From contig OZ024884.1 of the NCBI GenBank assembly GCA_964017185.1, positions 1,663,573-1,727,572 on the forward strand: 64,000 nt of DNA. The letters run 5' to 3'. The translations under genes and the position numbers were made by a program. Source of the stretch: Rugalucina vietnamica (taxonomy: Eukaryota > Mollusca > Bivalvia > Lucinida > Lucinidae). A model generated the notes under the pieces. The model saw only the letters and a program-made list of their open reading frames with translations, did not search any database and was not told the origin of the DNA. Shown in pieces: positions 15,331 to 51,185 of the stretch; position 1 is the first letter of the stretch, and each line of letters starts with the position of its first letter.

Positions 15331-16303
15331 ATGTCTGAGTGTGTATTTTTGAATTTTAGCCAAGTCAACAATTCATGTGTCAACATCTCGAATGTGAACC
15401 GCAACGAAACAGACTTTTACGCCACATTATACGATATCTACCATGTGATAACCTTCATCATCTGTTCATTTGGATTCATCGTGAATATTCTCAACATCAT
15501 TGCTATATTGAATGCACCAGGAAAACTGACGCCTCACTCTAAACTTGTTATCAGCCTTGCGGTATCTGACATTTGTGTTCTGCTACCCACTCTAGTTGCA
15601 GAAATAAGAATTATTATAGCAAATCAATCTTGCTACTATGAATTGGTTGTACATAAGTATTTCCAACCAGGCGTCGTGTTAGTTTCGTTATTAAATCTTC
15701 TAATGTTAGGGATAGACCATTGTTAAACCACTGCATTATGACAGAATATTGTCTACAAAACGCATAAGCGCATGCGTGGACTTTATTTGCATTTTCAGTT
15801 TCGTCGCAAGTGTAATTAAAACCATTCCTAAGATTATAAGCTACTTTAAAAGCAATGAGGACCAATTTTGTCTTTACATGATCGTAGAATATATGCCAAG
15901 ATTCCCATATTTACTTGTTATACCAGTGTTTATTGTGTTAGTCATTATATACACGCGAATCTATGTGGCATACACCAAGTATGTTACACGACGTCAGATC
16001 TTTCATCCAGACGACCAACACAACAATAAAGCCATTGTCACGACGTTATTGATAATTATAACATTTATGATTGTTTGGGTTCCTGTAAGTGTAATGTCTA
16101 TAATAAGTACTATATATTATACAGCCGTATTAATTCTTTTGAATTCATCATGTGATGCTCTGATTTACGCAGTGCGGCTAGAAGTTGTCAAACAAGGGTA
16201 TAAAATTGTCCTTACAAAATTGTGTAGAAAGTGTCGTATTCGTTTAGCCATCGGCCAAACAATTACAGCCAGACCCAGGATAAAATTACAAAATATGGGT
16301 TAA
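15331..16303 (+). pseudogene. GPCR-A: class A orphan receptor, frameshifted
   Basis: Starts ATGTCTGAGTGTGTA in the same context as GPCR-B. TM1 (FGFIVNILNIIAIL), TM2 (SLAVSDI) and TM3 (VSLLNLLMLGID) are readable up to 15718. There an 11-nt deletion within ATTATATAGCGATT, bounded by repeated ATT, shifts the frame and brings a stop after ..GIDHC. The second frame (from about 15724) reads through TM4-TM7 to the normal C-terminus QNMG. Other defects are the conserved TM4 Trp changed to Cys, loss of 7 codons in extracellular loop 1, and loss of 17 codons between TM6 and TM7 (the last two shared with GPCR-D). It is probably non-functional; a 5' truncated receptor from the second frame is unlikely. 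Confidence 0.9.
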
Positions 16304-16553
16304 CAATGCAGTGTTGTGTTAATATCGTCTAAGACCGTTTCTTATCTTTCTCATATAGAACTGATAGACAGACTATCAGTCTCTTCAAAACATAGACTTC
16401 CTGATTCTCGTGTACATGTTATGATTGCAAATTATTTGTTGGATTGATTCTATGGAAGTATGACCAGCTTGTACATATTCAAGATACCAGGATTGTAATT
16501 TCAAAAAATCTTAAAAACAGTCAACTACAAAATAAGTACAGACAGATGCAAAA
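16304..16553. other. GPCR-A 3' flank and psi2 5' flank
   Basis: 250-bp spacer conserved after GPCR-A, C and D. Its last 50 bases (AACAGTCAACTACAAAATAA) repeat the leader found before the receptor starts, showing that the downstream pseudogene arose by tandem duplication with its own leader. Confidence 0.7.
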
Positions 16554-17575
16554 ATGGCTGAATGTGTATATTTGAATTTTAGCCAAGCCAACAATTCATG
16601 TGTTAACATTTCGAATAAGCACCGCAACGGAAGGAACATCAACGCTGAAAGAAGATATTACAATATACATCTTCTTTATGTTAACCATACCTTTTGTCCA
16701 TTTGAAATAATCATAAACATTCGCAACATCATTGGTATATTGAATGAAACAGGAAAACGGACGCCACACTCTAAACTGGTTAACAGCCTTACAGTATCTG
16801 ACATTAGTGATGTGCTAACCGCCCTAGTTACAGAAATAAGTATATAGCTGTAGTTTTGGTAAAATTGAAATATATTGCTATTATACTATTATTTGGTTGT
16901 ACAGGGTGTCCAAAAACGTAGCTGCTACAATATATGTTTACTGTTTATTTCATTTTCACAGATAATTCAATCAAACTTAACAGGAGTATGCTTCAAAACA
17001 ACGTCTTTAGATTATGTACTTTGCATAATATCCAAAATGACCACCATCATTGTAAATGGCCACTTTCGGAGAAACGAAAATTTTACACAACACATGGTCG
17101 TTCACTCCCCATTTTGGAAAAGAATCTCCATTTTTCACTACATTTTGTCCAGTTTTTAATAAATGCTTTTAGCTTCTGATAATTATCGTTACTTCACCCT
17201 CTTAAGGGAAAATAAAGGCTTGAAAATACTTGGATATTGCATTTTGCCACTGCTTTTCATTTCCACGAATGCGAGTTGCATCAGACAACAGGAAGTGACA
17301 TCCCAGATTCGTTATAACTCGTTATGACGTCACTTGCTCATGAAGCTTTACCTAGCAAACTGGAGGTCATATTATGAATCAAATATAACAACAGTCCTTC
17401 TGTTTAAAATATTTTGTTTATATCTGCTTTATTTAACAAAGCTGTTCACTTTTTTGTAGCGGCTACGTTTTTTGGACACCCTGTATATACGTATATCGAA
17501 CAAGGCGCCGTGTTAGTTTCATTGTTAAATCTTCTCAAGCTAAATTTGGCCATTACATAGCGAAAATATTTCACA
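16554..17575 (+). pseudogene. GPCR pseudogene psi2, split by a MITE
   Basis: Begins ATGGCTGAATGTGTA and is open for 97 codons. N-terminal residues MAECVYLNFSQANNSCVNIS align with MSECVFLNFSQVNNSCVNIS of GPCR-A, keeping NxS/T sites, then TM1/TM2 become degraded (NINIR for NILN, NSLTVSDIS for ISLAVSDIC). It stops at 16847 and, after the MITE at 16902-17483, resumes with VLVSLLNLL before fading. TM4-TM7 are missing. It shares all lesions with psi3, so the damage predates the duplication. Confidence 0.88.
16902..17483. mobile_element. TA-flanked MITE with TIRs (copy 2)
   Basis: Ends CAGGGTGTCCAAAAACGTAG and CTACGTTTTTTGGACACCCTG-type are inverted, flanked by TA. It lies inside psi2: receptor sequence ..TTGGTTGTA precedes it and ..CGTATATCGAAC follows it, against TTGGTTGTACATAAGTATAT in the intact gene. 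Confidence 0.9.
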
Positions 17576-17667
17576 GCTGAGAAACACGTGGTACGGAATG
17601 GGTGACGCACAATGAAATTCTAACCAAAAGTGAGACGAGAAATTCGAGTTTTCTCCTATATGGTTTA

Positions 17668-17897
17668 CTCTATTGACTGCTAGATACGTGCAGTCAATGA
17701 AGATATTAAACATTTATTGAATGAAAGTAACATAAGGAATTCAGGTTATTTCATTTTAGCAAACACTTCCGCCCAATGAACATATAGTACTTCCAACATA
17801 ATAACATTGAAGTGTTTGCGAAAACGAAATAACCGGGACTTCTGATGCTCCTTTCTTCCTTCTGCATTGACTGCACCTATCTGTCAGTCAGTAGAAG
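17668..17897. repeat. Palindrome copy 2 with shortened right arm
   Basis: As at 1036-1275, but AATAAATGTTCAAT is missing from the right arm. The inner arm TTTGCGAAAACGAAATAACC is intact. Confidence 0.8.
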
Positions 17898-18455
17898 AGT
17901 CGCCGTTGAAAATCTAACCTCAGTTCTCAGTTGCTGTGTGTGTCATCGATCATTTATCGGTTTGTATATATTCAATACCACGTGATTGTCAGTAGTGATA
18001 ATTGTTAAACTGCTAAAACACAATCAGGGTGGACATTTCACAAAATACATATTATAGGCAACATTTTGCCTTGGTGCACTCCTAGAATGATGTAAATGTC
18101 ATGGCTTAATAAGATACTTCTCAAGCTTTCCAGTGATATATAATATGTGCGGGTTAATAGTAGCGAAACTGTTCACTGCCCAGTTAAAAGGCTTTAATTG
18201 GCCATTTTTGTGTGTTATAAAGTTTCACTTCAAAAATTCTTTATTTTTGTTCATATTCTCCATTATGGCTAATTATTTAGTGAGAATCTTAATAAGGATC
18301 AAGATTTTAAAGTGCTTCCAGGCCGTTCTGGTGACGTAAATCTCTAGCTCTTACTATAGATTAACAATTAATTATGAAACAGCGCTGTTGCACTATAAAA
18401 GTGCCGCCTTCTGTTAGCGTTGGCTTTGTTTACTTGCGAGAGTAAGATACAGTCT
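17898..18455. other. Duplicated intergenic sequence
   Basis: Matches 34736-35090 and 42489-42694 (segment 3, split by the 7.4-kb insertion). No gene recognised. Confidence 0.5.
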
Positions 18456-19516
18456 CGCAACTTATTAGGTTTGCTAGAGTCTGCAATCATGTTACAGACT
18501 TCAACGCTCGAAATAAATGTTTAACGGCAAAACTTCTCCAACAGGGCTATCGGTATCATAAACTTCGAAAAACCTTTTCTAAATTTTATCGTAGACACTA
18601 TGAATTGATTTCCAAATATAATGTTGGGTTAAAGACACTTTTAAGTGAGGGCCTTTCGGAACCTGAATTTTATGGTGACTTTGTTTACAAATTAAAGAAA
18701 CTTAAAGGAATAAATGATTTTTCTCTTCAGTTCGGAAAAATCATATCACGTTACAGACGTATAGGTTATAACTTGAATGTTATGCGACAGTCTGCATGCT
18801 TAGTTTTTAACCCAATCATGGTTGATAACTATGCTGCCTTCTTTAATTGCACGCCGGTGGGTCGGGCGTCAGACTCTATGATGGCCCCGACAAAGCTATT
18901 CATGTTAGTTGGTTGGGGCCGGAGCTTCTTGTCTGTTGCTTGGCCCACCGGGGTCCAACTGGTGTTTTTCTTTTGCTCCGGAGTTAGTAGGTTATTCGGC
19001 GCCCAGGGATCTCCATCGTCGGGCAGCTTACTCAATCTGTGAGTCCTGGTTTTTGATTCATCAGGATGTTTATCATGATTTATTTGTTTGTTCTTGATGA
19101 TTCATTGACTAGTTAGAGATTCACCACGAGGACCGAAGAACTAACTAAATGTTGTGAACCACTGCAGAAGCTGAGGGTGAGGTTAGGTACCTGTAAAACC
19201 GGTTTAAGCCCGCCAGTAACTTTGTGTTACTGATCGTTCCAAGTCGATACTTCTGTAGTGGTTCTTTTTGTTTTATGTCTTGGTGTTTAAAATTTTTTGT
19301 GCTGTTGGCGCCTTATGTATGTTTTCATATTTTTAGTTAAGTTAAGGTAACTGAGTGGCCACCTATTAGGAAAATAGCTGCTCATTCGGCTTACGATATG
19401 TTTCATGGTATAAGTACCTGATTGTTAGTTTGGTTTTTTCCCACCTCGGTTTTTGGAGTGGGAATCTTTTTCTGATTGCGCCTTTTCCTGATCTTTGCCT
19501 ACTTGTACCTTTTTTT
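18456..19516 (+). mobile_element. 5'-truncated Penelope-like insertion with empty site
   Basis: Carries the last ~150 codons of the reverse transcriptase ORF, the 3' UTR and the 310-bp terminal repeat, ending CCTACTTGTACC followed by a run of T. Segment 3 reads ATACAGTCTCCTCGAATCAT across 42691-42711 with no insertion. At most one base is duplicated at the junctions. 5' truncation with an intact 3' end fits target-primed reverse transcription. Confidence 0.9.
18457..19042 (+). pseudogene. Penelope-like reverse transcriptase, C-terminal fragment
   Basis: Frame reads QLIRFARVCNHVTDFNARNK onward, the region after the catalytic YLDD in the fuller copy at 59627. The polymerase motifs are not included. 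The normal stop (ACATAA in the 61270 copy) has become ACAAAG, so the frame runs on about 45 codons into the UTR (KLFMLVGWGRSFLS..). It is inactive by truncation and matches the minus-strand fragment at 62638-63316. Confidence 0.85.
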
Positions 19517-19660
19517 CCTCGAATCATGTTCTATCAGCTGACGGCGTGTAAAACCGACATCATGACGCCAGACAACGTAAGACTCTCATATAGGATGACG
19601 CCATAGTGTCGTAATCGATTTCTAAGCAACCTACGAATCACGGGCTAGGTAATTAGAGCC

Positions 19661-19750
19661 ATGGATAAAAGGATTTGTATCAAAACAGCTGACGGAAAAC
19701 AAATGGCGTGGTGCGTAGCGCCGATAGGTTTTCGGTTCTGTAAACGTTAA
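19661..19750 (+). pseudogene. Truncated copy of the MDKRIC short exon (segment 2)
   Basis: ATGGATAAAAGG opens a frame reading MDKRICIKTADGKQ..CVAPIGFRFCKR and stops at TAA. The copy at 52174 continues to a splice-donor-like AAG|GTAGG instead. The joint here (CTGTAAAC|GTTAAATG) shows a ~2.6-kb loss relative to segment 4. The segment 3 twin is at 42856-42945. Confidence 0.35.
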
Positions 19751-19821
19751 ATGTAAACGTGCAAGGCTAGACTTGACCACCACATCAAACGGTAGAGGCC
19801 TACTAAGTGAAAGATTTCTCG

Positions 19822-20018
19822 TATAAAAAGCGAAATCGCACGTCATTTTAGCAATTTATACACATATGGGAACACCTCCGGAGAAAGGCCAGGGAACAAA
19901 ACGACGCCAGTTACGTCATACACCGGGGGCGTTACCTGATACCAGAATGGAACCAAATCTGTACGATCGTGGTAAAGCACTGTTTTTCAACACAGAAAAA
20001 GGTACAATTAGACAATGA
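19822..20018 (+). CDS. Candidate small ORF with upstream TATA box
   Basis: GTATAAAAAGCG at 19821 is a good TATA box. ATG follows at 19866 and opens 50 codons, MGTPPEKGQGTKRRQLRHTP then a stretch ending LYDRGKALFFNT, after which the frame enters an old Penelope-like repeat and stops at 20018. Composition (charged, GC-richer than its surroundings) looks coding, and the frame is kept in segment 3 (43061) but has a stop in segment 4 (GGCTAG near 55007). I do not recognise a protein family. It may be exon 1 of a host gene cut by a repeat, or the start of an older retroelement ORF. Confidence 0.3.
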
Positions 20019-20290
20019 TCAGGAAATGACGCAATCAGAAAGTTAACCCCACCCCATAAACCGAGGGATGGGAAAAACTCAAAAGGCACTTAGGTACGTA
20101 TACCAAGAAAAAGGTACAAGTGGACAACGATCAGGAAAAGGCGCAATCAGAAAGAGATTCCCACTCCAAAAACTGAGGTGGGAAAAACAGAATTAACAAT
20201 CAGGTACTTATACCATGAAAACATATCGTAAGCCGAATGAGCAGATATTTTCCCAAAAGGTGGCCACTCAGTTACCAAAACTTAACTCGT
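19996..20290 (-). mobile_element. Two adjacent old antisense Penelope-like terminal repeats
   Basis: Starts at GGTACAATTAGACAATGATC and again at GGTACAAGTGGACAACGATC (20110). These are diverged variants of the same repeat, truncated at TTAACTCGTA. Twins: 43196-43488 and 55116-55408. Confidence 0.65.
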
Positions 20291-20375
20291 AAGACCATCG
20301 TAAGTATGTCCTAGTTAGGGGAACTTCCGATGCCTTCGGTTAACTAACCCGTGTCAGATTGTCAATTTAGTTTTT
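20291..20375. repeat. Short hairpin-forming stretch
   Basis: TAGTTAGGGGAACTTCCGAT and ATGCCTTCGGTTAACTAACC form an imperfect hairpin. Also at 43489 and 58971. In segment 4 the 3.55-kb insertion landed at its left edge. Confidence 0.5.
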
Positions 20376-20816
20376 CCCATCTCGGTGATAAATTCTTTCT
20401 GATTGCACCGTTTCCTGACCATTCCTAGTTTACTTTTCCATAAAGCATACTACAAGTTATATTGACGATCTTTCATTAGTCGGACACGCTATATACAAAC
20501 CTACCGGTAGAATAATATTGGTTACAAACCTACCGCTAGAACAATATTGGTTTGCTCTTGTTAATCTATAAATCTTTGCTTCGTTTGAATTCATTATTTG
20601 GCGCGTTGTGGCTAGATGTTGTCAAGCAAGAATATGCATGTAAGGCCATTTTCTAGAAAATCCGCACAAAATGTCATAGCCGATAACCGATAACCGAAAA
20701 CGTAAGAGATAATCAGTACGAGATAAGGATAAGTGCATACTTCGGCAGGATAAACTGAAACAAGAGTACTTGTTCAATTTAAGTGTTTTAATGTGTTAAA
20801 TGTTAAATTATTAGGA

Positions 20817-21190
20817 AGGTACAAGTAGGCAAAGATCAGGAAAAGGCGCAATCAGAAAAAGATTCCCACTCCAAAAACCGAGGTTGGAAAAAACAAACTA
20901 ACAATTAGGTACTTATACCATGAAAACATATCGTAAGCCGCATGAGCAGCTATTTTCCTAAGAGGTGGCCACTCAGTTATCTTAACTTAACTAAAAATAT
21001 GAAAACATACATAAGGCACCAACAGCACAATAATTTTAAACACCAAGACATAAAACAAAAAGAACCACCACAGAAGTATCGACTTGGAACGATCAGTAAC
21101 ACAAAGTTACTGGCGGGTTTAAATCGATTTTACATGGCCAAAACCTCACCTTCATCTTCTGCAGTGGCTCTGATATATACACACATATAA
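20817..21190 (-). mobile_element. Antisense Penelope-like 3' terminal repeat
   Basis: Begins AGGTACAAGTAGGCAAAGAT; about 310 bases end at GGCGGGTTTAAATCGATTTT, followed by a diverged antisense UTR. An apparent frame in this stretch (SSYFPKRWPLSYLNLTKNMK) runs antisense to the element and is not a gene. Confidence 0.75.
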
Positions 21191-21475
21191 ACATGCAATA
21201 AGGAAATCATGTTAAGAAATATAAAACATAGGTACCAACGTATAACATGTATAACGGAAAGCAGGGTGAGCAGCTATTGAAGGTAAGGTGGTCACAGTGC
21301 TAGCTTGGACTCAACAAATAAAATGCAGAGGGCTAAGTGAACAGCCAATTGACATTCGGGTGGCCACAAAGTCATACAACAAAAACTCATTATTGGAATA
21401 ACTTGGATAAATACTTTCTTGGATAGACACTGTAACAGGTTGTACTTTAAATAATAATAAACTACTAGACTAGTA
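21191..21475. other. Old repeat with LINE 3' tail
   Basis: As at 12226-12957 but with the LINE protein stretch deleted: GGATAGACAC joins straight to TGTAACAGGTTGTACTTTAA. Ends in AATAATAATAAACTACTAG. Confidence 0.6.
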
Positions 21476-21602
21476 CAAGTAACAATGAAACTATTATAGT
21501 GTAGTAACAAAAACTTACTGTACGGAATGATGTACGGTTTGTGTGACTTTTACACAAATGTGCATCGAATATATATTTGTCTTAGGTTATGACGACAAAA
21601 GA

Positions 21603-21675
21603 ATCTCCCTAGTGTGATGGTTAGCGCACTCTCTTCACAATCATCAGGCTGTGGGTTCAATCCCAATGTTAGACG
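21603..21675 (+). repeat. tRNA-derived SINE head
   Basis: A box-like GTGTGATGGTTAGCGCAC and an exact-type B box GGGTTCAATCC at the right distance. The acceptor stem does not pair, so it is not a tRNA gene. Confidence 0.5.
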
Positions 21676-21798
21676 AATATTTTTTTTTGTCTTTTTGTTA
21701 TTCACTCACGTTATTCATTATCTTTTCTAAAAGGAATTTAGTCGGAAAATGAAATAAATCTCGCGCCTTAAAATAAACAAGAACGCCGAGGAGGTTGA

Positions 21799-22322
21799 TA
21801 TCGCACCTGCATCGGGCAAAATAACTAAAACCGTGGACTATAGGTCAGGTCAAGGTGTGTATTGTAAAGGTTTGTCAAGGACATTTACTATGCAAGGTTT
21901 CACACTCACAGCTATCACAGGTGCAGAGACTTAAAAATTAACAAAGTCAATGGACCATGAAATATAGGTCAGGGGCACCGGGTCAATGAGCATGCTTGAA
22001 GGACATGTCAAGGACAATTACTATGCAAGGTCTCACACTCGCAGCTAAGACTGATGCAGAAAAAACTTCGATGTAAAAATGAACAAAGTCAATGGACCGT
22101 GAAATATTGGTCAAGGGCACTGAGTCAAAGTGAGTGCTTGAAGGGTATGCCAAGGATAATTACTATACAAGGTTTCACACCCGCAGCTATCACTGATGTA
22201 GAGATAACCAAACTTCGACGTAAATGTTTACGGACGGACGTACGTACGGACGGACGAACGGACGCACAGACGGGCGGAAATTTGGACTCCTATATCGCAC
22301 CTTGCTCTAAGCAGGTGCGATA
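21799..22322. mobile_element. 524-bp MITE with TATCGCACCTGC ends and internal tandem repeats
   Basis: Ends TATCGCACCTGC and GCAGGTGCGATA are perfect inverted repeats. The right end also hairpins with an adjoining TATCGCACCTTGCTC. The inside has about three diverged ~130-bp units, each with CAATGGACC, a CAAGG motif and CTATGCAAGG, followed by a GACGGACG simple repeat. This is the most complete member of the family seen at 14146, 27484, 30440 and 47747. Confidence 0.82.
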
Positions 22323-22735
22323 AAAATTAAAATGGATTCACCTAAATGAAATCCATCTTATGCCCCAATTTCATATAGTAAAACTGGGGAATGCAGGGGT
22401 ATTCCTATTTCTCTTATTTTTGCTCCAAAACATAGGTTGTGGGTACTCGTTAGAACCGATACTATATAACTACGCCACCGCGCACACCATATTGAATTTA
22501 GGAAATTATTGTCGCTCTTCTCTTTGTCTACAAGACGGGAGTTTCTCCATCAGTGTTTTCCTTGATACATGTATCTGTGAATTGAAACATAGCACTGTAG
22601 TGTATCGGGATGCAGGATCGGCACCTGACCCACAAGCTTACGACAAAATCCACCATAATACGGCCATATAGCAGTATTGAATGGAACAGAATCTTCGTTC
22701 GAGTGATCCGTAGCAATCTTACATATGCATATGGC
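22323..22735. other. Half of a palindromic element and unassigned sequence
   Basis: 22355-22475 matches the right half of the palindromic element at 26690-26946 in reverse (TTATTTTTGCTCCAAAACAT, GGGTACTCGTTAGAACCG). The rest, to 22735, has short open stretches on both strands and no recognisable product. Confidence 0.5.
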
Positions 22736-22745
22736 ACAACTATTT

Positions 22746-22978
22746 ATGGTTAGCGCAGTGGCCTGATGGAGCATCAGACTACTGATCGAGAGGTCCTGGG
22801 TTCGATCCATACTAGGGGCACCGTGTTGTGTCCCAATTGGCATCACTCTATATTATTGGTTAATACCAAGGAAGCGGTCTTCCGTCTCGACATAAATGGA
22901 CAATTGTTGAATGGGGCATTAGATATAAATACAAGAAGACATTAGATATAAATACAAAAAAAAAAAAAAAACATGTAT
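22746..22978 (+). mobile_element. tRNA-derived SINE with A-rich tail
   Basis: A box GGTTAGCGCAGTGGCCTGAT and B box GGGTTCGATCC, then a tRNA-unrelated body, a duplicated ACATTAGATATAAATACA and a run of A. The structure fits a pol III retroposon. Confidence 0.7.
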
Positions 22979-23346
22979 TTAAAAAATTGATGTTTTGTAT
23001 ATTATTATCAGAGATACATTCGTGTACATGTATTTTGTCGTATCTCCTCGATCTGAAAACAAATTTATTAGGCCCCTGATTGACTGAATTTATCTACGTC
23101 GTGCAAAAAAAGTTACGCCCATTGAGGTGAAGCTGGCGTTATTGGAACTAAGGACATTCTAAAGAAACTGTTAGACTGTCAAAATTTACAATTTACATTA
23201 ATTTTCTATACACACTATATTACACTTTATGGTAAACAAATGCATCAGAAGAGGCCAACAGGCCTAAATAGATGTCAACATAGGCATATCAAGGTGTATA
23301 TAAGTTTTTAACGGCATCACAAAAGTATGATTTAATCGTTTTGACA
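22979..23346. other. Unassigned AT-rich sequence
   Basis: Nothing coding or structured recognised. Confidence 0.3.
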
Positions 23347-23347
23347 A

Positions 23348-23348
23348 T

Positions 23349-23390
<42 letters not shown>
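23348..23390. repeat. Poly-T run of about 42 bases
   Basis: Uninterrupted T tract. It could be the tail of a minus-strand retroposon. The polyphenylalanine frame it opens is not a gene. Confidence 0.9.
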
Positions 23391-23391
<1 letters not shown>

Positions 23392-23448
23392 TATTCACTG
23401 CTTTTCTTACTTCCATCTATCTTTAATAATTTTGCAATTTCGTACATA

Positions 23449-25690: not shown

Positions 25691-25699
25691 AAATAAGAA

Positions 25700-27470: not shown

Positions 27471-27483
27471 TTACTGTGAACGA

Positions 27484-28695: not shown

Positions 28696-29745
28696 ATGTC
28701 TGAGTGTGTATTTTTTAACTTTAGCCAAGTCAACAGTTCATGCGACAACAATTCGAATGTGTACCGCAACGAAACAGACTTTGTTCCCTCATTACACGAT
28801 ATTTACTTTGTGATAACCTTAATCATCTGTTTATTTGGGTTCATCGTGAATATTCTCAACATCATTGCTATATTGAATGCACCAGGAAAATTGACGCCTC
28901 ACTCTAAACTGGTTATCAACCTTGCGGTATCTGACATTTGTGTTGTGCTACCCTCCATAGTTACACGAATAAGTATGGCAACTTTACTTGTTGGAGATGT
29001 TAATCTATCTTGCTACTATCATGTGGTTGTACATAAGTATATCGAACCAGGCGTCGTGTTAGTTTCGTTATTAAATCTTCTAATGTTAGGGATAGACCAT
29101 TATATAGCGATTGTTAAACCACTGCATTATGACAGAATCTTGTCTACAAAACGCTTAAGCGCATGCGTGGCCTTTATTTGGATTTTTAGTTTCGTCGTAA
29201 GTGTGATTGAAACCATTTATAAGATTATTAGCTACTTTAAAAGCAATGAGGACCAATTTTGTCTTTACATGATGTTAGAATATTTGCCCAGATTCCCATA
29301 TTTACTTGTAATACCAGTGTTTATTGTGTTAGTCATTATATACACGCGAATCTATGTGGCATACACAAAGTATGTTACACGACGTCAGATCTTTCATCCA
29401 GACGATCAACACAACAATAAAGCCATTGTCACGACGTTATTGATAATTATAACCTTTATGATTGGTTGGGTTCCTGTAAGTGTAATGACTATAATAAGTA
29501 CTATATATTATACAGGCGTACGAATGATTTTTAATGACTGGTTATGGTTTATCCTTGTTATGTGTGGTAATTTAATTCTCTTGAATTCATCATGTGATGC
29601 TCTGATTTACGCCTGGCGGCTAGAAGTTGTCAGACAAGGGTATAAAATTGTCCTTACAAAATTGTGTAGAAAGTGTGGTATTCGTTTAGCCATCGCCCAA
29701 ACAATTACAGCCAGACCCAGGATAGAATTACAAAATATGGGTTAG
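28696..29745 (+). CDS. GPCR-B: intact class A orphan G protein-coupled receptor
   Basis: 349 residues from ATGTCTGAGTG; an upstream in-frame GTG is not a eukaryotic start. The N-terminus has NFS, NSS and NET glycosylation sites. Seven helices are near residues 36-60, 70-92, 112-137, 154-175, 199-223, 245-268 and 283-308. Landmarks: GFIVN in TM1, LAVSD (D80) in TM2, C106 and C189 for the loop disulphide, D134-H135-Y136 in place of DRY, W162 in TM4, P207 in TM5, GWVP (258-260) in place of CWxP, and D301-ALIY in place of NPxxY. The tail is short with C324/C327. It lies at the plasma membrane and presumably signals through a G protein; the ligand is unknown. It is single-exon as seen and the only complete copy here. 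DxxIY endings recall amine, adenosine and melanocortin-like groups, but I would not assign one. Confidence 0.9.
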   Translation: MSECVFFNFSQVNSSCDNNSNVYRNETDFVPSLHDIYFVITLIICLFGFIVNILNIIAILNAPGKLTPHSKLVINLAVSDICVVLPSIVTRISMATLLVGDVNLSCYYHVVVHKYIEPGVVLVSLLNLLMLGIDHYIAIVKPLHYDRILSTKRLSACVAFIWIFSFVVSVIETIYKIISYFKSNEDQFCLYMMLEYLPRFPYLLVIPVFIVLVIIYTRIYVAYTKYVTRRQIFHPDDQHNNKAIVTTLLIIITFMIGWVPVSVMTIISTIYYTGVRMIFNDWLWFILVMCGNLILLNSSCDALIYAWRLEVVRQGYKIVLTKLCRKCGIRLAIAQTITARPRIELQNMG

Positions 29746-34735: not shown

Positions 34736-35789
34736 CCGTTGGAAAAATTTAGAAAATCTAACCTCAACTTCGTTCTCAGTTGCTGTGTGTGTCATCGATC
34801 ATTTATCGGTTTGTATATATTCAATACCACGTGATTGTCAGTAGTGATAATTGTTAAACTGCTAAAACACAATCATGGTGGACATTTCACAAAATACATA
34901 TTATAGGCCAACATTTTGCCTTGGTGCACTCCTAGAATGATGTAAATGTCATGGCTTAATAAGATACTTCTCAAGCTTTCCAGTGATATATAATATGTGC
35001 GGGTTAATAGTAGCGAAACTGTTCACTGCCCAGTTAAAAGGCTTTAATTGGCCATTTTTGTGTGTTATAAAGTTTCACTTCAAAAATTCTTTTTTCTAAA
35101 GACACCAGCTGCCGAAGGCAGCTTCGACCGGCCAGCCGTAGGTATGTAAACACATTGTCCTTCCGAAGTGTCTTCGGCTGTTTCCGCCACATGCCGAACA
35201 AATACGAACGCCTAAAAAAACACCGAAGGTGTTTAAAAAAAATGATCAAATAAAATGAATTGCAGAAAAATTTGTTTTTCAAAATATTTATGTATACATT
35301 TTCAATAAATGATTTTCTAAATTAAATACGGAATCGACCGAACTGGGTGGCCATATTGTTTTGGAATGGATCCATCATATTTTTTTTTCACCAGCTTATC
35401 GAATCTCACGTTATGGGAAACGCGGGTACCATAGCGTTTCCGGGTCTCCGTAGCAACGGCAAGGTTCTAAAATTATTGAAAATCTAACGCAATGCAGCAA
35501 ATGATGAACGTTTCTCGCGATTTCAAGACCTATTTGGAGTCGCTCGCTGTTGGACAGTTGTAATTACAGATGCCGGAGACTTTAAAGTGATAACTGACGT
35601 AGAAACAAGTTGTTAAATCAGGAATTTAACTTTTAACGTGAAACAAATTCAGGAGGAAGTCGTCATTCGAAAGTGAAAGTGCAGGTGTAAGTTGAACACA
35701 AACAAGTTTTACTCTTCATTTAACACATTTTCTACATTCACTAGCTGCCACAGCCAGCACGACCAAAGTTTTGTGTTCCTATTTTGGTT

Positions 35790-36730
35790 GGCGTCACTGT
35801 CTATCAAAGTGTCTTAACTGCCGTAGGCAGTTTTCGGTTTCTGAGATGGATGGCATTACTGCCTATCAAAGTGTCTTAACTGCCGTAGGCAGTTTTCGGT
35901 TCTGAGATGGGTGGCTTCAATGAGACAGTTGGCGTCACTGTCTATCAAAGTGTCTTAACTGCCGTAGACACCTTTCGGTTTCTGAGATGGATGGCATTAC
36001 TCTCTATCAAAGTGTCTTAACTGCCGTAGGCAGTTTTCTGTTCCTGAGATGGGTGGCTTCATTGAGACAGTTGGCGTCACTGCCTATCAAAGTGTCTTAA
36101 CTGCCGTAGGCAGTTTTCGGTTTCTTAGATGGATGACATCACTGCCTATCAAAGTGTTTTAACTGCCGTAGGCAGTTTTCGGTTACTTAGATGGGTGGCT
36201 TCACAGAGACAGTTGGCGTCACTGTCTATCAAAGTGTCTTAACTGCCATAGGCAGTTTTCGGTTTCTGAGATGGTTGGCCTCACTGTCTATCAAAGTGTT
36301 TTAACTGCCGTATGGCAGTTTTCGGTTGCTGAGACGGTTGGCATCAATGTCTATCAAAGTTTCTTTTAAAACTGCCGGTAGGCAATTTTCCATTCTAAGT
36401 TTCAAAGTCAGATCCGTTCAAATTCAGATCAAAGTTTCTTAACTGCCTGTAGGCAGTTTTCGGTTTCTGAGACAGATGGCCTCACTGCCTCTGAGACGGT
36501 TGGCGTCAGTCTTATCAGTTTTCTGTTCCCAAGAGGAATGGCCTCACTGTCTTTCATAGTGTCTTTACTACCGGTAGGCAGTTTTGGGTTCATGAGACTC
36601 ATGGCTAACTGGAAGACAGTTTTCAGTTCCTGAGATGGATGTCCTCACTGTCTGTCAAAGTGTCTTTCGGTTGCTGAGACTGATGGCCTCACTGTCTATC
36701 AAAGTGTGTTAACTGCCAGAAGTCAGTTCT
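35790..36730. repeat. Minisatellite of ~60-bp units with GCCGTAGGCAG core
   Basis: More than a dozen units of TATCAAAGTGTCTTAACTGC then CGTAGGCAGTTTTCGG, some with an added CTTCAATGAGACAGTTGGC. Each unit holds a small palindrome (CTGCCGTAGGCAG). Units become more diverged to the right. Confidence 0.9.
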
Positions 36731-41000: not shown

Positions 41001-41027
41001 GCACAGTGTCCTTGAGCTCTAAAAATA

Positions 41028-42488: not shown

Positions 42489-42855
42489 TTTTTGTTCATA
42501 TTCTCCATTATGGCTAATTATTTAGTGAGAATCTTAATAAGGATCAAGATTTTAAAGTGCTTCCAGGCCGTTCTGGTGACGTAAATCTCTAGCTCTTACT
42601 ATAGATTAACAATTAATTATGAAACAGCGCTGTTGCACTATAAAAGTGCCGCCTTCTGTTAGCGTTGGCTTTGTTTACTTGCGAGAGTAAGATACAGTCT
42701 CCTCGAATCATGTTCTATCAGCTGACGGCGTGTAAAATCGACATCATGACGCCAGACAACGTAAGACTCTCATATAGGACAATGACAATTTGACGCCATA
42801 GTGTCGTAATCGATTTCTAGGCAACCTACGAATCACGGGCTAGGTAATTAGAGCC

Positions 42856-42945
42856 ATGGATAAAAGGATTTGTATCAAAACAGCTGACGGAAAACAAATT
42901 GCGTGGTGCGTAGCGCCGATAGGTTTTCGGTTCTGTAAACGTTAA
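42856..42945 (+). pseudogene. Truncated copy of the MDKRIC short exon (segment 3)
   Basis: Same truncated frame and same TAA as 19661-19750, showing that segments 2 and 3 inherited one deletion. Confidence 0.35.
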
Positions 42946-43016
42946 ATGTAAACGTGCAAGGCTAGACTTGACCACCACATCAAACGGTAGAGGCCTACTA
43001 AGTGAAAGATTTCTCG

Positions 43017-43215
43017 TATAAAAAGCGAAATCGCACGTCATTTTAGCAATTTATACACATATGGGAACACCTCGGGAGAAAGGCCAGGGAACAAAACGAC
43101 GCCAGTTACGTCATACACCGGGGGCGTTACCTGATACCAGAATGGAACCAAATCTGTACGATCGTGGTAAAGTACTGTTTTTCAACACAGAAAAAAGGTA
43201 CAATTAGACAATGAT
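43017..43215 (+). pseudogene. TATA-plus-small-ORF cassette (segment 3)
   Basis: TATAAAAAGCG then ATG at 43061, with the same MGTP..EKGQGTKRRQL frame as 19866. An extra A in the following repeat changes its end. Confidence 0.3.
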
Positions 43216-43635
43216 CAGGAAATGACGCAATCAGAAAGTTAACCCCACCCCATAAACCGAGGGATGGGAAAAACTCAAAAGGCACTTAGGTACGTATACC
43301 AAGAAAAAGGTACAAGTGGGCAACGATCAGGAAAAGGCGCAATCAGAAAGAGATTCCCACTCCAAAAACTGAGGTGGGAAAAAAACTGAATTAACAATCA
43401 GGTACTTATACCATGAAAACATATCGTAAGCCGAATGAGCAGATATTTTCCCAAAAGGTGGCCACTCAGTTACCAAAACTTAACTCGTAAGACCATCGTA
43501 AGTATGTCCTAGTTAGGGGAACTTCCGATGCCTTCGGTTAACTAACCCGTGTCAGATTGCAAATTTAGTTTTTCCCATCTCGGTGATAAATTCTTTCTGA
43601 TTGCACCGTTTCCTGACCATTCCTAGTTTACTTTT
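43196..43635. mobile_element. Old Penelope-like variants and hairpin stretch (segment 3)
   Basis: Matches 19996-20435 piece for piece. Confidence 0.65.
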
Positions 43636-44012
43636 CCATAAAGCATACTACAAGTTATATTGACGATCTTTCATTAGTCGGACACGCTATATACAAACCT
43701 ACCGGTAGAATAATATTGGTTACAAACCTACCGCTAGAACAATATTGGTTTGCTCTTGTTAATCTATAAATCTTTGCTTCGTTTGAATTCATTATTTGGC
43801 GCGTTGTGGCTAGATGTTGTCAAGAAAGAATATGCATGTAAGGCCATTTTCTAGAAAATCCGTACAAAATGTCATAGCCGATAACCGATAACCGAAAACT
43901 TAAGAGATAATCAGTACGAGATAAGGATAAGTGCATACTTCGGCAGGATAAACTGAAACAAGTATACTGGTTCAATTTAAGTGTTTTAATGTGTTAAATG
44001 TTAAATTACTAG

Positions 44013-44569
44013 GAAGGGACAAGTAGGCAAAGATCAGGAAAAGGCGCAATCAGAAAAAGATTCCCACTCCAAAAACCGAGGTGGGAAAAAACAAACTAAC
44101 AATTAGGTACTTATACCATGAAAACATATCGTAAGCCGCATGAGCAGCTATTTTCCCAAGAGGTGGCTACTCAGTTATCTTAACTTAACTAAAAATATGA
44201 AAACATACATAAGGCACCAACAGCACAAAAATTTTAAACACCAAGACATAAAACAAAAAGAACCACCACAGAAGTATCGCCTTGGAACGATCAGTAACAC
44301 AAAGTTACTGGCGGGCTTAAACCGGTTTTACAGGCGCCTAACCTCACCCTCAGCTTCTGCAGTGGGTCATAACATTTAGTTAGTTCTTCGGTCCTCGTGG
44401 TGAAACTAGTCAATGAATCATCAAGAGCAAACATATAAATCATGATAAACATCCTGATGAATCAAAAACCAGGACTCACAGATTGAGTAAGCTGCCCGGC
44501 GATGGAGATCCCTGGGCGCCGAATAACCTACTAATTTTGGAGCAAAATAAATACGCCAGTTAGACCCCG
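44013..44569 (-). mobile_element. Antisense Penelope-like 3' end (segment 3)
   Basis: Terminal repeat from GGACAAGTAGGCAAAGATCA to CCGGTTTTACAGGCGCC, then antisense UTR to CCCCGGTGGGCCAAGC. CCGGTTTTACAGGCGCC near 44323 is the empty site for the sense insertion at 59817-61894 in segment 4, and ATAAACATCCTGATGAA near 44445 is the empty site for the antisense insertion at 62015-63310. Confidence 0.8.
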
Positions 44570-44676
44570 GTGGGCCAAGCAACAAACATTGAACTTGGGA
44601 GATACATAAATCCAAAAATCCCACTAGCACAGAGATTGTGTAAAGTGTGTGAAAGCCGTGCTGTTGAGGATGAAAA
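44570..44676 (+). pseudogene. LINE zinc-knuckle fragment (left half, segment 3)
   Basis: IELGRYINPKIPLAQRLCKV then CESRAVEDEK, directly followed by GGTACAAGTAGG of a Penelope-like repeat. Confidence 0.7.
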
Positions 44677-45278
44677 GGTACAAGTAGGCAAAGATCAGGA
44701 AAAGGCGCAATCAGAAAAAGATTCCCACTCCAAAAACCGAGGTGGGAAAAAACAAAACCAACAATCAGGTACTTATACCACGAAAACATTTCGTAAGCCG
44801 AATGAGCAGCTATTTTCCCAATAGGTGGCCACTCAGTTACCTTATTTTAACTAAAAATATGAAAACATACATAAGGCGCCAACAGCACAAAAATATTTTA
44901 AACAGCAAGACATAAAACAAAAAGAACCACCACAGAAGTATCGACTTGGAACGATCAGTAACACAAAGTTACTGGCGGGTTTAAATCGATTTTACATGGC
45001 CAAAACCTCACCCTCATCTTCTGCAGTGGCTCTGATATACACACATATAAACATGCAATAAGGAAATCATGTTAAGAAATATAAAACATAGGTACCAACG
45101 TATAACATGTATAACGGAAAGCAGGGTGAGCAGCTATTGAAGGTAAGGTGGTCACAGTGCTAGCTTGGACTCAACAAATAAAATGCAGAGGGCTAAGTGA
45201 ACAGCCAATTGACATTCGGGTGGCCACAAAGTCATACAACAAAAACTCATTATTGGAATAACTTGGATAAATACTTTC
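44677..45278 (-). mobile_element. Antisense Penelope-like 3' repeat inserted in the LINE fragment
   Basis: Runs from GGTACAAGTAGGCAAAGATC through the terminal repeat to the diverged UTR. The LINE reading frame resumes at HFLVEC afterwards. Confidence 0.7.
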
Positions 45279-45722
45279 TTGGATAGACACTTTCTTGTGG
45301 AGTGCTCAGGATATAATGCTCTGAGAAATGAACTGTTTACGAAAATAAACATTCACCACCTGGCAGATGATGAGAAATTTAAATACTGTTTGATTGAAGC
45401 AGACTGCAAACCGGTATCAAACTTTTTGATAAGTGCATACGAGAAAAGAAACGTTATGTTATCTAGGCGATGAATAGGATAATACACATATAATTCCAAT
45501 TCTAGCGTATGATCAGTTGAAATGTTGACTACTTTTAAAATAAGACTATTAAAAGTTCATTCCAGGAATAATACCGATGAATAGTGACAGTGCATCATAA
45601 GCCTTCGTAGGCTGGCTGTTAAATATCATATATACACTGTATTTATATTGTATTTGTATAGTTGCATGTATATTATTGTGTAACAGGTTGTACTTCAAAT
45701 AATAATAAACTACTACTACTCC
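45279..45722 (+). pseudogene. LINE ORF2 C-terminus and tail (right half, segment 3)
   Basis: RHFLVECSGYNALRNELF to a stop at 45473, then the 3' UTR ending in (TAC)n. Twin of 12513-12957. Confidence 0.7.
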
Positions 45723-45767
45723 AAACAACAAGCTCCGGCCCCAATCAACTAAAATGAATAGCTTTAA

Positions 45768-46631
45768 GGATGTTCGCTGCTAACATTTGACATTTCGGAA
45801 CTTCCGGTTTTTCTTTTCTTGAATATCTCGTAAACGGATGCAGATATTTTCCTAATATTTTATATTTGGATACATATTGATGATATGCATTGAATGAGCC
45901 ATAAAAATTGTCAATCTAAGAATCTTCATTTATTTCACCCCATTTCCTGCAACTTTTCGGAAAATTTTAGTTGTCAGTAAAATTTAGGGGGTAGGGTAGA
46001 TTCTAAGTCAGTCTTTGTGTCTTTAGTGTGCTGGTTTTAAAATTTTAGGTGGTTTTATGAAATGGGCTTTTAGAAACAAAACAGTCGAAGAAAGGCTGAA
46101 AATGGCGATTTTCAAGTTGTTGGTTCTCTCTTATGTGCTCACTACCCTATATATTTCTTTCTTTTATTCGAACAATATTACCAAGTTCTATGTTATGTGA
46201 AAATACAAGAAAAAGTTTGAATCAACAAATATGAATTTGGCACATTTCAAAATATTGATTTTTTCCAACTTTTCAAGTATGGGGGTAGGGTTGAAAAAGG
46301 AATCGTAAAATTTTGTCATCCACTCCCAGTTGCAAATTTTTCTATGCTTTTGGTCCAAAATAGTCTGCGTTACGTAAATATTATGACTTTTGAAAGCATT
46401 CTAGGTATATGTTTGTTCAAGACAGGTATGTTTCAAAGAATTAAAAATTAAATTAATTATACCAAATTTAAAACATGGTGCTCAGAGGTTTCATTCAGAG
46501 GCTTGTAGCTTGAAAAAATGCACACTACCCTATATTTATTTTGCTTTCAAATGGCTTATGTTGTATTTTGGAATAAAAAAAGAGTGGTTAGAAAAAAAGT
46601 TTGAATACTTTTTCATTGGCAGCGAACATCC
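45768..46631. mobile_element. 864-bp MITE with TTAA target duplication
   Basis: GGATGTTCGCTGC is exactly inverted at GCAGCGAACATCC. TTAA flanks both sides (45764-45767, 46632-46635). The empty sites in the other flanks read AGCTTTAAATCGG (about 12995) and AGCTTTAAGTCG (about 26382). TTAA targets are used by piggyBac and Kolobok transposons. No transposase inside. Confidence 0.93.
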
Positions 46632-48939
46632 TTAAGTCGGGGCCAAGATCATGTCGTTATTTATTATTTGATACATCGTAAATTGCAAGAAAATATTTAA
46701 ATGCAATTTATTCACTGTTTCTTAAATAACTTAAAAGTTAATACTACTAAGTACTATGAAATTTAAAGAATGCACACATCACTTTCTTAATCTTCACGAT
46801 CTTGATTTGGACTCTGTAAATTTAAAGCTGATGATATTGTTTTCTCCTTCATATTGAAGTGAAAAATCGCGATTAATTCTATAGCTTTACGACCAGTGGC
46901 TCATATTAGTTAAGATAAAGTTGAACAAGAAAACAATATAAAGCAAAGGTCTATGAGGTGGCTTGAATCCCTGATTTTAACATAAGGAACTATAGCTTCC
47001 AAAATAGCAAGTAACATACTGTTCACGAGAGACCATGCCAGATGTAGATAATAAATTTAACAAGTTAAATCGATATCACATGTTATGAGCGAGATGGCGT
47101 CTATCTATAGCAACCCCATTTCTGAAAGCTACAAGTAGGCAATGATCAGGAAATGGCGCTAACAGAATGCAATTCCCACTCCACAAACCGCAGGGTGGGA
47201 AAAACTAAAATGAAAACTAGGTACTTAAACCAAGAAAACATATAGTAAGCCGAGTGAGTAGCTATTCCCAAATAGGCGGCCACTCAGATTTCAAAACTGA
47301 ACTAAAACTATGAAAACGTACATAAGGCTCATACAGACTCCAAAACACAAAACAATTAGAATCACAACAGAAGTATCGCCTTGACACGATCAATTGGGAC
47401 AATTACTGTGAAAGAGTTTACTGTGTAAAACCGGTTGAAGCCCGCCAGTAACTTTGTGTTACTGATCGTTCCAAAGCGATACTTCTGTGCTGGTTCTTTA
47501 TGTTTTATGTCTTGGTGTTTAATAGTTTTGTGCTGTTGGCGCCTTATGTATGTTTTAATATTTTTAGTTAAGTTTAGGTAACTGAGTGGCCACCTATTGG
47601 GAAAATAGCTGCTCATTCGGCTTACGATATGTTTTCATGGTACAAGTACCTGAATGTTAATCTAGTTTTTTCCCACTTCGGCTTTTGGAGTGGGAATCTT
47701 TTTCTGATCGCGCCTTTTCCTGATCTTTGCCTACTTGTACTCTTTCACTCTCACATCTTAACAGGAGTAGTGAAAACCAAACTATAATGTGAACTTTGGC
47801 GTGATATTTGAAGACAAAATGACAAACGGAGGGATAGACAGATGGAAAGTTGGAGGAGCAGGTGCGATAAAATAATAAGACACATCGTTTACCACGTTTC
47901 TGCAGGTTGTTTTACCAAATGTAATCAAAATGACGCCTTTTTTAAAATCCCAGTTTGTGTTTTCGAGAACCAGACCTTCAAAAGAACAAGGTAGTGTTGT
48001 AAAGGAATAAAACGTTCAATAATGAATTATAAAAATGAGTATTTGCGTTTTATTTAGTTTCCAATTTTGAAGGAGCAATTTAAAATCAAACTTCGCTGAC
48101 ATTTCAGAATAACATAATAAAATAACTCGAGCCTCAAGAGCTTTGTTTCTTTAACAAATGCTTTAATTTGTTGACATTTCTGTGTTCAGAAGTTTCAATT
48201 ATTAATACAAAACATTCAAATCAGACTGTATGATATTTACTATCATTTCAGAATTTTATATATAAGGGTTTATTTCATAACATATTACACTCATGTTGGG
48301 CGACGCGACTGAGACCAAACTTACAGTGTTTATGATGTGAAGAAGAATCGATAACTTATAAATATATCTATGGATAAATGTAAAATGCTGCAGGTGGAAT
48401 CGAAATCCACACAATCTGTTCTGTTTGAGTTCAAAGCTATGTGATTTGGAAAACAATTTATAACATTTAATTAAAGAAATATAGTCGAAAAAAAGACTCT
48501 CAACACCTGACGTATTAAAACATCTTTCTTCGTTAAAGTAAATATATGTTCTACAAATAATATATGCGGAGGGAGTAATTCTAACATTACAGAATAGGGA
48601 GAATCAAGAAAAAAATGAACACATTACTGAAAACAAAGACAATAACAACCGAACAAAAGCTAGACAATAATGGTTTATTGTTTCATTAGACGTTCATGAA
48701 AGAAAACTTTCGAACGGTCTGGCTGATTATCATGTAAGTTGTTTGATGAATACGAAAGATTCGAAAGTGATTCTGTGGAAGCATAAACATTTCGAATACC
48801 AGATTCTTTGGTTTCTGTGGATGTATGCAGATTTCAAATGCTTGTACACATTTCAGACTTTAAATGTATTTTAAGGGTATTTATTTCAGAACCTCTTTAA
48901 CAACAGTCAACTACAAAATAAGTGCAGACAGATGCAAAA
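46632..48939. other. 5' flank block of GPCR-D
   Basis: Homologous to 12996-15330. Contains an inverted pair of Penelope-like repeats (47125-47400, 47430-47745), a degraded short repeat (47747-47872), and the conserved kilobase up to the receptor start. Confidence 0.6.
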
Positions 48940-49923
48940 ATGTCTGAGTATGTATTTTTTAACTTTAGCCAAGTCAACAATTCATGCGTCAATATTTCGA
49001 ATGTGAACCCTAAAGAAACAGACTTTGTTCCCACATTACACGATATTTACTTTGTGATAACCTTAACCATCTGTTCATTTGGGTTCATCGTGAATATTCT
49101 CAACATCATTGCTATATTGAATGCACCAGGAAAACTGACGCCTCACTCTAAACTTGTTATCAGCCTTGCGGTATCTGACATTTGTGTTCTGCTACCCACT
49201 CTAGTTGCAGTAATAAGAATTATTATAGCAAATCAATCTTGCTACTATGAATTGGTTGTACATAAGTATTTCCAACCAGGCGTCGTGTTAGTTTCGTTAT
49301 TAAATCTTCTAATGTTAGGGATAGATCATTATATAGCGATTGTTAAACCACTGCATTATGACAGAATATTGTCTACAAAACGCATAAGCGCATGCGTGGC
49401 CTTTATTTGGACTTTTAGTTTCGTCGCAAGTGTAATTGAAATCATTCCTAAGATTATAAGCTACTTTAAAAGCAATGATGACCAATTTTGTCTTTATATG
49501 ATCGTAGAATATATGCCAAGATTCACATATTTACTTGTTATACCCGTGTTTATTGTGTTAGTCATTATATACACGCGAATCTATGTGGCATACACAAAGT
49601 ATGTTACACGACGTCAGATCTTTCATCCAGACGACCAACACAACAATAAAGCCATTGTCACGACGTTATTGATAATTATAACATTTATGATTGTTTGGGT
49701 TCCTGTAAGTGTAATGTCTATAATAAGTACTATATATTATACAGCCGTATTAATTCTTTTGAATTCATCATGTGATGCACTGATTTACGCAGTGCGGCTA
49801 GAAGTTGTCAAACAAGGGTATAAAATTGTCCTTACAAAATTATGTAGAAAGTGTGGTATTCGTTTAGCCATCGGCCAAACAGTTACAGCCAGACCCAGGA
49901 TAGAATTACAAAATATGGGTTAA
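48940..49923 (+). CDS. GPCR-D: class A orphan receptor with two in-frame deletions
   Basis: 327 residues, open from ATG to QNMG. Relative to GPCR-B it lacks 7 residues (TLLVGDV) in extracellular loop 1 and 17 residues (RMIFNDWLWFILVMCGN) covering loop 3 and the outer part of TM7. It keeps the loop Cys pair, IDHYIAI, TM4 Trp (FIWTFSF), TM5 Pro, WVP in TM6 (VWVP) and DALIY. The shortened seventh segment (AVLILLNSSCDALIYAVRL) is about 19 residues with hydrophobic character, so the chain may still cross the membrane seven times, but the outer ligand-facing end is gone. It may be a recent loss-of-function copy or an altered receptor. Confidence 0.75.
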   Translation: MSEYVFFNFSQVNNSCVNISNVNPKETDFVPTLHDIYFVITLTICSFGFIVNILNIIAILNAPGKLTPHSKLVISLAVSDICVLLPTLVAVIRIIIANQSCYYELVVHKYFQPGVVLVSLLNLLMLGIDHYIAIVKPLHYDRILSTKRISACVAFIWTFSFVASVIEIIPKIISYFKSNDDQFCLYMIVEYMPRFTYLLVIPVFIVLVIIYTRIYVAYTKYVTRRQIFHPDDQHNNKAIVTTLLIIITFMIVWVPVSVMSIISTIYYTAVLILLNSSCDALIYAVRLEVVKQGYKIVLTKLCRKCGIRLAIGQTVTARPRIELQNMG

Positions 49924-50181
49924 GAATGCAGCGTTGTGTTAATATCGTCTGAGACCGTTACTTATCTTTCTCATATAGAACAGATAGACGGACCACAGTC
50001 TCTTCAAAACATAGACGTTTTGATTCTCGTGTACATGTTATTTATATTATGATTGCAAATTAATTGTTGGATTGATTCTATGGAAGTATGACCAGCTTGT
50101 ACATATTCACGATACCAGGATTGTAATTTCAAAAAATCTTAAAAACAATCAACTACAAAATAAGTACAGACAGACGCAAAA

Positions 50182-51185
50182 ATGGCTGAATGTGCATATT
50201 TGAATTTTAGCCAAGCCAACAATCCATTTGTAAACATTTCGAATAAGCACCGCAACGGAAGAAACATCAACGCTGAAAGAAGATATTACAATATATATCT
50301 TCTTTATGTTAACAATACCTTTTGTCCATTTGAAATAATCATAAACATTCGCAACATCATTGGTATATTGAATGAAACAGGAAAACGGACGCCACACTCT
50401 AAACTGGTTAACAGCCTTACAGTATTTCACATTAGTGATGTGCTAACCGCCCTATTTACAGAAATAAGTATATAGCTGTAGTTTTGGCAAAATGAAATAT
50501 ATTGTTATTATACTATTATTTGGTTGAACAGGGTGTCCAAAAACGTAGCTGCTACAAAATAGGTTTACTATTTATTTCATTTTCACAGATAATTCAACCA
50601 AACTTATCAGGAGTCTTTAGATTATGTACTTTTCAAAAATGACCACCATTATTGTAAATGGCCACTTTCGGAGAAACGAAAATTTTACAAAACACATGGT
50701 CGTTCACTCCCAATTTTGGAAAAGAATCTCCATTTTTCACTACATTTTGTCCAGTTTTTAATAAATGCTTTTAGTCTCTGATAATTATCGTTACTTCACT
50801 CTCTTAGTAACATTTTTAAGGGAAAATAAAGGCTTGAAAATGCTTGGATATTGCATTTTGCTACTGCTTTTCATTTCCACGCATGCGAGTTGCATCAGAC
50901 AACAGGAAGTGACATCCCAGATTCGTTATGACGTCACTTGCTCATGAAGCTTTACCTAGCAAACTGGAGGTCATATTATGAATCAAATATAACAACAGTC
51001 CTTCTGTTTAAAATATTTTGCTTTACATCTGCTTTATTTAACAAAGCTGTTCATTTTTTTTGTAGCGGCTACGTTTTTTTGGACACCCTGTATATACGTA
51101 TATTCAACAAGGCGCCGTGTTAGTTTCATTGATAAATTTTCTCAAGCTAAATTTGGCCATTACATAGCGATAATACTTCACAGCT
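50182..51185 (+). pseudogene. GPCR pseudogene psi4, split by a MITE
   Basis: ATGGCTGAATGTGCA opens 97 codons to 50475; further decay relative to psi2/3 (NNPFVNIS for NNSCVNIS, TVFHISD for TVSDISD). The MITE occupies 50529-51090, then VLVSLINFL remains. Details in and around the MITE (GTAACATTTTTAAGGG, CACGCATGCGAG) match psi1 and differ from psi2/psi3. Confidence 0.88.
50529..51090. mobile_element. MITE with TIRs (copy 4, left TA mutated)
   Basis: Same ends and site as the other copies. The left flank reads GGTTGAA where others have GGTTGTA. About 20 bases are missing inside. Confidence 0.88.

Follow-up and report, generated by a model that had tools for sequence, protein, structure and literature searches.

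Shared lesions and mosaic copies in a head-to-tail array of class A receptor genes in the bivalve Rugalucina vietnamica

Vertebrate olfactory and vomeronasal receptor genes lie in clusters that evolve by tandem birth and death, contain many pseudogenes, and undergo gene conversion. Here, we describe a 64,000-nucleotide stretch of the genome of the bivalve Rugalucina vietnamica (C16:1663573-1727572; "the window") that carries part of a tandem array of G protein-coupled receptor (GPCR) genes. The likeness to the vertebrate clusters lies in this mode of evolution, and there is a difference: the receptors of the array lack the arginine at position 3.50 (R3.50). Residue positions are in the usual class A numbering and were placed by alignments to the receptors GALR1 and A2B.

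The closest molluscan likeness is to the Aplysia californica candidate chemosensory receptors AcCRa-c. In PMC2700072, these are described as rhodopsin-type and mostly intronless, belonging to lineage-specific families that are at least partly clustered, with some broken members and limited similarity to known receptors. They differ, by description, at the cytosolic end of transmembrane helix 3 (TM3), where a highly conserved arginine (ERC) in Aplysia is replaced by histidine in the receptors described here. Cephalopod GPCR expansions, in the sections of PMC6408891 that concern them, also form tandem clusters and show purifying and some positive selection; those sections do not mention any spread of shared lesions, and the octopus-specific expansion is Methuselah-like, whereas the array described here matches PF00001. 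The scallop genome paper (PMC5700196), in its passages on receptors, mentions opsins and a GPCR98-like protein and no similar family.

Duplicated units, shared lesions, and mosaic copies

The window contains eight receptor copies, all on the forward strand: four main genes, A to D, and four partial relics (Table 1). This count, made by blastn, agrees with that of an earlier note written from the sequence alone. A, C, and D are about 86 to 89% identical to B at the DNA level over 1.5 to 1.6 kb, far above chance (blastn). A search of the genome (1.09 Gb in 47 contigs, C16 being 38.9 Mb) with B gave at least 95 matches, and 116 of 369 first-look candidates were scored; the array runs past the window on both sides. 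With 13 query proteins, we catalogued a 264-kb region (C16:1573573 to 1837572, including 4,500 bases N), in which 13 near copies in one orientation fall within about 140 kb: c592, c605, c614, c623, c634, c638, c645, c662, A, B, C, D, and c730. They differ from one another by 1.8 to 14%. Six of them (c623, c634, c638, c662, B, and c730) are complete and open with a full TM7. The receptor domain of all six is open in a single frame in the genes as read (genes, not transcripts), as in the intronless clusters described above. The earlier note's single intact copy is correct inside the window, where it is B, but five more complete open copies adjoin the window on the same contig. Distant open relatives lie further along C16 (v762, v798, v808, and v816; 49 to 58% identity), and another lies on contig C3 (59% identity).

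The commonest lesion among the main genes is a 51-nt in-frame deletion (17 codons) that removes extracellular loop 3 (ECL3) and the outer half of TM7. It is present in 7 of the 13 copies (c592, c605, c614, c645, A, C, and D), at about position 16135 in A, 32946 in C, and 49755 in D; B keeps the corresponding 51 nt at about 29527-29577. By alignment, TM7 is present in B and in the five complete copies outside the window, and 17 residues are missing at this site from A, C, and D. Five divergent relatives carry residues at this site, though the loop varies; therefore, loss is most simply the derived state. The deletion would most simply have arisen once, and it now lies on more than one sequence background. 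A second shared deletion, of 15 nt in ECL1 (21 nt relative to C), is common to c614, c645, A, and D (4 of 13 copies), at about 15621 in A and about 49230 in D.

Lesions are also held in common by the relics. A relic lies about 250 to 260 nt past the stop codon in 9 of the 13 units (blastn; c605, c614, c623, c638, c645, c662, A, C, and D), and in c592 a short piece was detected by tblastn. The relic at the window start belongs to c662, which ends at C16:1663250, about 250 nt before its relic begins. All nine aligned relics have three one-base gaps and a 5-base insertion relative to the gene. Each of the four relics in the window is split by a long insertion at one position, and in seven of the nine (not in c623 or c645) a second relic piece follows, the intervening gap measuring roughly 575 to 620 bp. 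The gap ends are inverted repeats (CAGTGTGTCC or CAGGGTGTCC ... GGACACCCTG) beside TA in A, C, c605, and c662, which makes the insert resemble a small mariner-type element. B and c634 have a different 3′ flank with no relic (none within 2 kb downstream of B by blastn), and none was detected by blastn within 2 kb downstream of c730. Judged by their common lesions, the old pseudogenes are one dead receptor gene copied along with its neighbor. The array would have grown by segmental duplication of a unit that, in 9 of 13 cases, comprises a receptor gene and an already dead relic.

The main genes do not follow a single tree. Across the 13 copies (91 informative two-state sites), the pairwise homoplasy index (PHI) was 0.323, compared with 0.479 ± 0.013 after permutation, and none of 2,000 permutations gave a value as low. 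Within subsets, 2 of 2,000 permutations were as low for the six complete copies and 0 of 2,000 for the seven TM7-deleted copies. At sites that differ between c614 and c623, c605 matches c614 at positions 136-223 (3 of 3 sites), c623 at positions 249-792 (43 of 44), and c614 again at positions 820-905 (9 of 9), with the final five such sites mixed. Its c623-like tract thus spans about 540 positions and is bounded by c614-like ends, a structure expected from gene conversion. Among the sites that distinguish A from B, D agrees with B at 14 of 20 as far as position 143 and with A at 26 of the next 27, as far as position 459; the switch falls between positions 143 and 195. The flanks are discordant too. 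Upstream of C, the sequence is 16 to 18% different from that of A, B, and D, and downstream it is 1.6% different from that of A; for B, the upstream flank differs by 4.5% from those of A and D and the downstream flank by 13 to 17% from those of A, C, and D. The downstream part of the B unit is 94.6% identical to that of c634, which lies outside the window. The copies are recombination mosaics, and they would have been reshuffled by gene conversion, unequal crossing-over, or both. We conclude that the locus very probably consists of class A GPCR genes arrayed head to tail, duplicated in units and reshuffled, with lesions shared among the copies.

Some lesions are private among the 13 copies: an 11-nt deletion at the cytoplasmic end of TM3 in A, a 1-nt deletion and a TAG at codon 3 in C, a 2-nt lesion in c592, and a 322-nt insertion and a stop codon in c614. 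The lesions in A and C had been described in the earlier note and are present as described. All of the copies with private lesions are TM7 deleted (4 of 7, compared with 0 of 6 complete copies; Fisher's exact test, one-sided P = 0.049, two-sided P = 0.070), and these copies would have gained their frameshifts, stop, or insertion after the shared deletion. Under classical birth and death, a recent burst of duplicates would decay with each copy losing function independently. The private lesions in A, C, c592, and c614 are what such a process would leave, and for these 4 of 13 copies the earlier idea of separate loss is upheld. Nevertheless, classical birth and death is an unlikely account of the locus as a whole. 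The commonest lesions are at identical positions (the 51-nt deletion in 7 of 13 copies, the ECL1 deletion in 4 of 13, and the relic frameshifts in 9 of 9), which contradicts independence for these lesions and with it the earlier claim that each lesion arose separately; in addition, the genes are mosaic rather than tree-like. A tally of the broken genes in a tandem cluster thus exaggerates the number of losses: much of the decay here traces to a single dead gene and a single deletion.

Selection and the state of the TM7-deleted copies

We estimated omega (dN/dS) with the codon model GY, F3X4, and compared each fit with omega fixed at 1 using twice the difference in log likelihood (2ΔlnL). Omega was 0.40 for the five divergent relatives (2ΔlnL, 97.9), 0.44 for 11 open relatives (2ΔlnL, 130.6), 0.69 for the six complete near copies (2ΔlnL, 6.8), and 0.66 for all 13 near copies (2ΔlnL, 14.6). 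The wider family is under purifying selection, and the near copies are relaxed. The possibility, raised in the earlier note, that dN/dS for B might be near 1 was addressed through the two sets that include B, those of 6 and 11 sequences, and in both omega is below 1.

In the complete copies, 75 of 91 variable codons in the extracellular half of the receptor are residue changing, compared with 41 of 67 in the cytoplasmic half (P = 0.0036). This extracellular excess was robust to moving the hand-set borders and to leave-one-out analysis (P = 0.001 to 0.031). The six copies with a complete TM7 are likely working receptors, and they would act at the membrane on a small ligand or peptide. The most likely single guess is a putative chemosensory role, which would fit the architecture.

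The copies that lack the outer half of TM7 are a different matter. Three of the seven are open (c605, c645, and D), and D is open but shortened, as first described (327 amino acids, compared with 349 for B). Measured from W6.48 to position 7.49, B has a spacing of 43 residues, compared with 39 in GALR1 and A2B; the spacing of 26 residues in D looks too short for a normal arrangement of TM6, loop, and TM7. D has 10 private changes, among which 0.37 stops would be expected; therefore, its open frame is no evidence of function. We judge, with modest certainty, that D is dead or dying, and the TM7-deleted copies as a class probably lost function with the deletion.

Alternatively, the TM7-deleted copies could be functional truncated receptors that serve as decoys or as dominant-negative partners of complete receptors. 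The deletion preserves the reading frame, three of the seven copies are open, and omega for the seven together is below 1, all of which would be expected of such proteins. However, omega for the three open copies is 0.80 and not distinguishable from 1 (2ΔlnL, 0.83). Few stops are expected as yet, which leaves openness uninformative; four of the seven copies are broken; and the spacing between TM6 and TM7 falls 13 residues short of that in two solved receptors. We consider this alternative very unlikely. An assembly artefact, in which uncollapsed haplotypes or misjoined repeats would give the appearance of an array, is scarcely credible: the region is repeat rich and the coding regions of B and c623 are only 1.8% apart, but these two have different 3′ flanks, and the copies, which lie on a single contig of 38.9 Mb, differ by 1.8 to 14% and have distinct flanks and private lesions.

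Several observations weigh against so clean a division of a reshuffled array into working and dead copies. Omega is below 1 both for the seven TM7-deleted copies (0.64; 2ΔlnL, 7.5) and for the four broken copies (0.55; 2ΔlnL, 7.3). Shared history with working copies, together with conversion, could be the cause, but selection may also act on them; omega alone does not separate live from dead copies. Moreover, codon models assume one tree, an assumption that recombination violates. In the TM7-deleted copies, the residue-changing fraction of variable codons is 61 of 80 in the extracellular half and 25 of 41 in the cytoplasmic half (odds ratio, 2.05; P = 0.093), a contrast not clearly unlike that in the complete copies. 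The association of private lesions with the TM7-deleted class is borderline and post hoc, and c623, which is counted as complete, has histidine in place of D7.49. Lastly, the AlphaFold model of B, folded with five other pieces of the window, was poor (mean predicted local distance difference test score, 38) and was not used; because of this, the argument for the effect of the TM7 deletion is one of spacing.

An unusual receptor signature

The process described above is an ordinary one for a gene family, but the receptor signature is unusual. B is a class A (rhodopsin) GPCR on the strength of its match to Pfam 7tm_1 (PF00001; E = 2.8e-22, positions 2-249 of 260), and D matches similarly (E = 4.3e-22). 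With the catalogued array, this match supports the tandem expansion of one orphan receptor that the earlier note proposed and places that receptor in class A. The 17 receptors aligned all have N1.50, D2.50, W4.50, and P6.50. At the position of the DRY motif of GALR1 and A2B, however, B has DHY, and R3.50 is absent. The motif is DH[YF] in 16 of the 17 aligned receptors and DQY in one; among 23 sequences, the codon for residue 3.50 is CAT in 19 and CAC in three, with glutamine in one. Among the array genes and their near relatives, every TM7 that can be read (14 of 14) has alanine at position 7.50, and the array has DAxxY in place of NPxxY. The proline is kept in all six outer relatives, one of which has the full NPxxY; the array has lost it. 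In c623 (L002 1501-2547), the motif reads HALIY; its histidine at 7.49 replaces the aspartate or asparagine of every other sequence whose TM7 is readable.

Solved class A receptors (beta-adrenergic, adenosine A2A, melanocortin 4, histamine H2, GPR119, and GALR1) belong to the same family and align over most of the domain, differing at these two motifs. Among receptors with solved structures, B was closest to GALR1 (E = 1.1e-9), A2B (2.8e-9), and GPR21 (4.3e-9). An outer relative was closest to the glucose-dependent insulinotropic receptor, which we take to be GPR119 (3.4e-13), and the beta-1 adrenergic receptor (1.6e-12), and a profile was closest to the beta-2 adrenergic (3.1e-28), A2a (2.2e-26), and MC4 (6.4e-25) receptors. 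No ligand family (amine, adenosine, melanocortin, or peptide) was clearly best in this comparison, which was limited to receptors with solved structures and within which orphan status holds.

The pattern [IV]DH[YF], whose degenerate first codon also admits M, matched at 71 places, compared with 41 in a reversed control, and it therefore gives no genome-wide number of DHY receptors. Seventeen of the 71 matches are in the C16 cluster, where 16 coincide with catalogued copies and the other with a fragment. Scans of viral, bacterial, and archaeal contigs with B confirmed no relatives, as would be anticipated for a gene of animals. A search for big defensin, made as a marker of molluscan origin, gave no match, which by the search's own control carries no weight. 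No description of this DHY receptor family was recognized in a literature search. PMC4814114 indicates that class A receptors without a DRY motif exist and that one 3.50 mutant loses coupling and two are constitutively active; PMC2700072 indicates that receptors without the TM3 arginine fail to activate G proteins. A broader and rather doubtful possibility is that a whole animal class A subfamily has histidine for the DRY arginine under purifying selection, with noncanonical activation, that its expanding branch has also lost the NPxxY proline, and that receptor number changes quickly because a deletion that kills TM7 is spreading through the array by conversion. Such activation may involve basal coupling to arrestin, coupling that depends on pH, or little coupling to G proteins. 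If the combination of DHY and DAxxY holds in other species, it would offer a natural test of class A signaling without arginine 3.50.

Layout of the window and other features

Table 1. Receptor genes, relics, and duplicated units in the window
Feature	Start	End	Strand	State or evidence
Gene A	15331	16303	+	Broken; private 11-nt deletion, shared ECL1 and 51-nt TM7 deletions (alignments of 4 and 13 copies)
Gene B	28696	29745	+	Complete open class A GPCR, 349 amino acids, ATG at 28696
Gene C	32111	33114	+	Broken; private TAG at codon 3 and 1-nt deletion, shared 51-nt TM7 deletion
Gene D	48940	49923	+	Open, 327 amino acids; shared ECL1 and 51-nt TM7 deletions
Partial relic at window start	1	932	+	blastn with B; relic of c662, begins before window start
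Relic 3′ of A	16554	17563	+	Pieces 16554-16903 and 17482-17563, insertion of about 575 bp between
Relic 3′ of C	33373	34383	+	Split point and small frameshifts as in other relics
Relic 3′ of D	50182	51171	+	Pieces 50182-50472 and 51089-51171
Duplicated unit around A	12990	18110	+	91.2% identity over 5.2 kb to D unit (self-blastn)
Duplicated unit around B	27485	29955	+	
Duplicated unit around C	31501	35095	+	
Duplicated unit around D	46624	51745	+	Self-blastn

Outside the receptor genes and relics, the window contains a reverse-transcriptase-like open reading frame (ORF) at 59627-61273 (+) and 62636-63316 (-), with a weak match to Pfam RVT_1 (E = 0.14); the inverted second copy is about 94% identical over 2.7 kb. 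By impression, the element may be Penelope-like. Each inverted copy has at its end a hairpin resembling a selenocysteine insertion sequence (Rfam SECIS_1; cutoff, 35), one at 62594-62661 (-; 36.2 bits) and one at 61248-61315 (+; 29.0 bits); these are possibly a chance hairpin of the element. A short ORF at 56375-56788 (-) resembles a C2H2 zinc finger weakly, with a best E value of 4.8e-05 that does not reach the curated cutoff. At 21932-22278, a 142-bp tandem repeat is followed by an (ACGG)12 run, a combination that resembles the "pearl" elements of bivalves. Further tandem arrays lie at 57025-58264 (316-bp units), 8425-9101 (173-bp units), and 35785-36707 (62/142-bp units).

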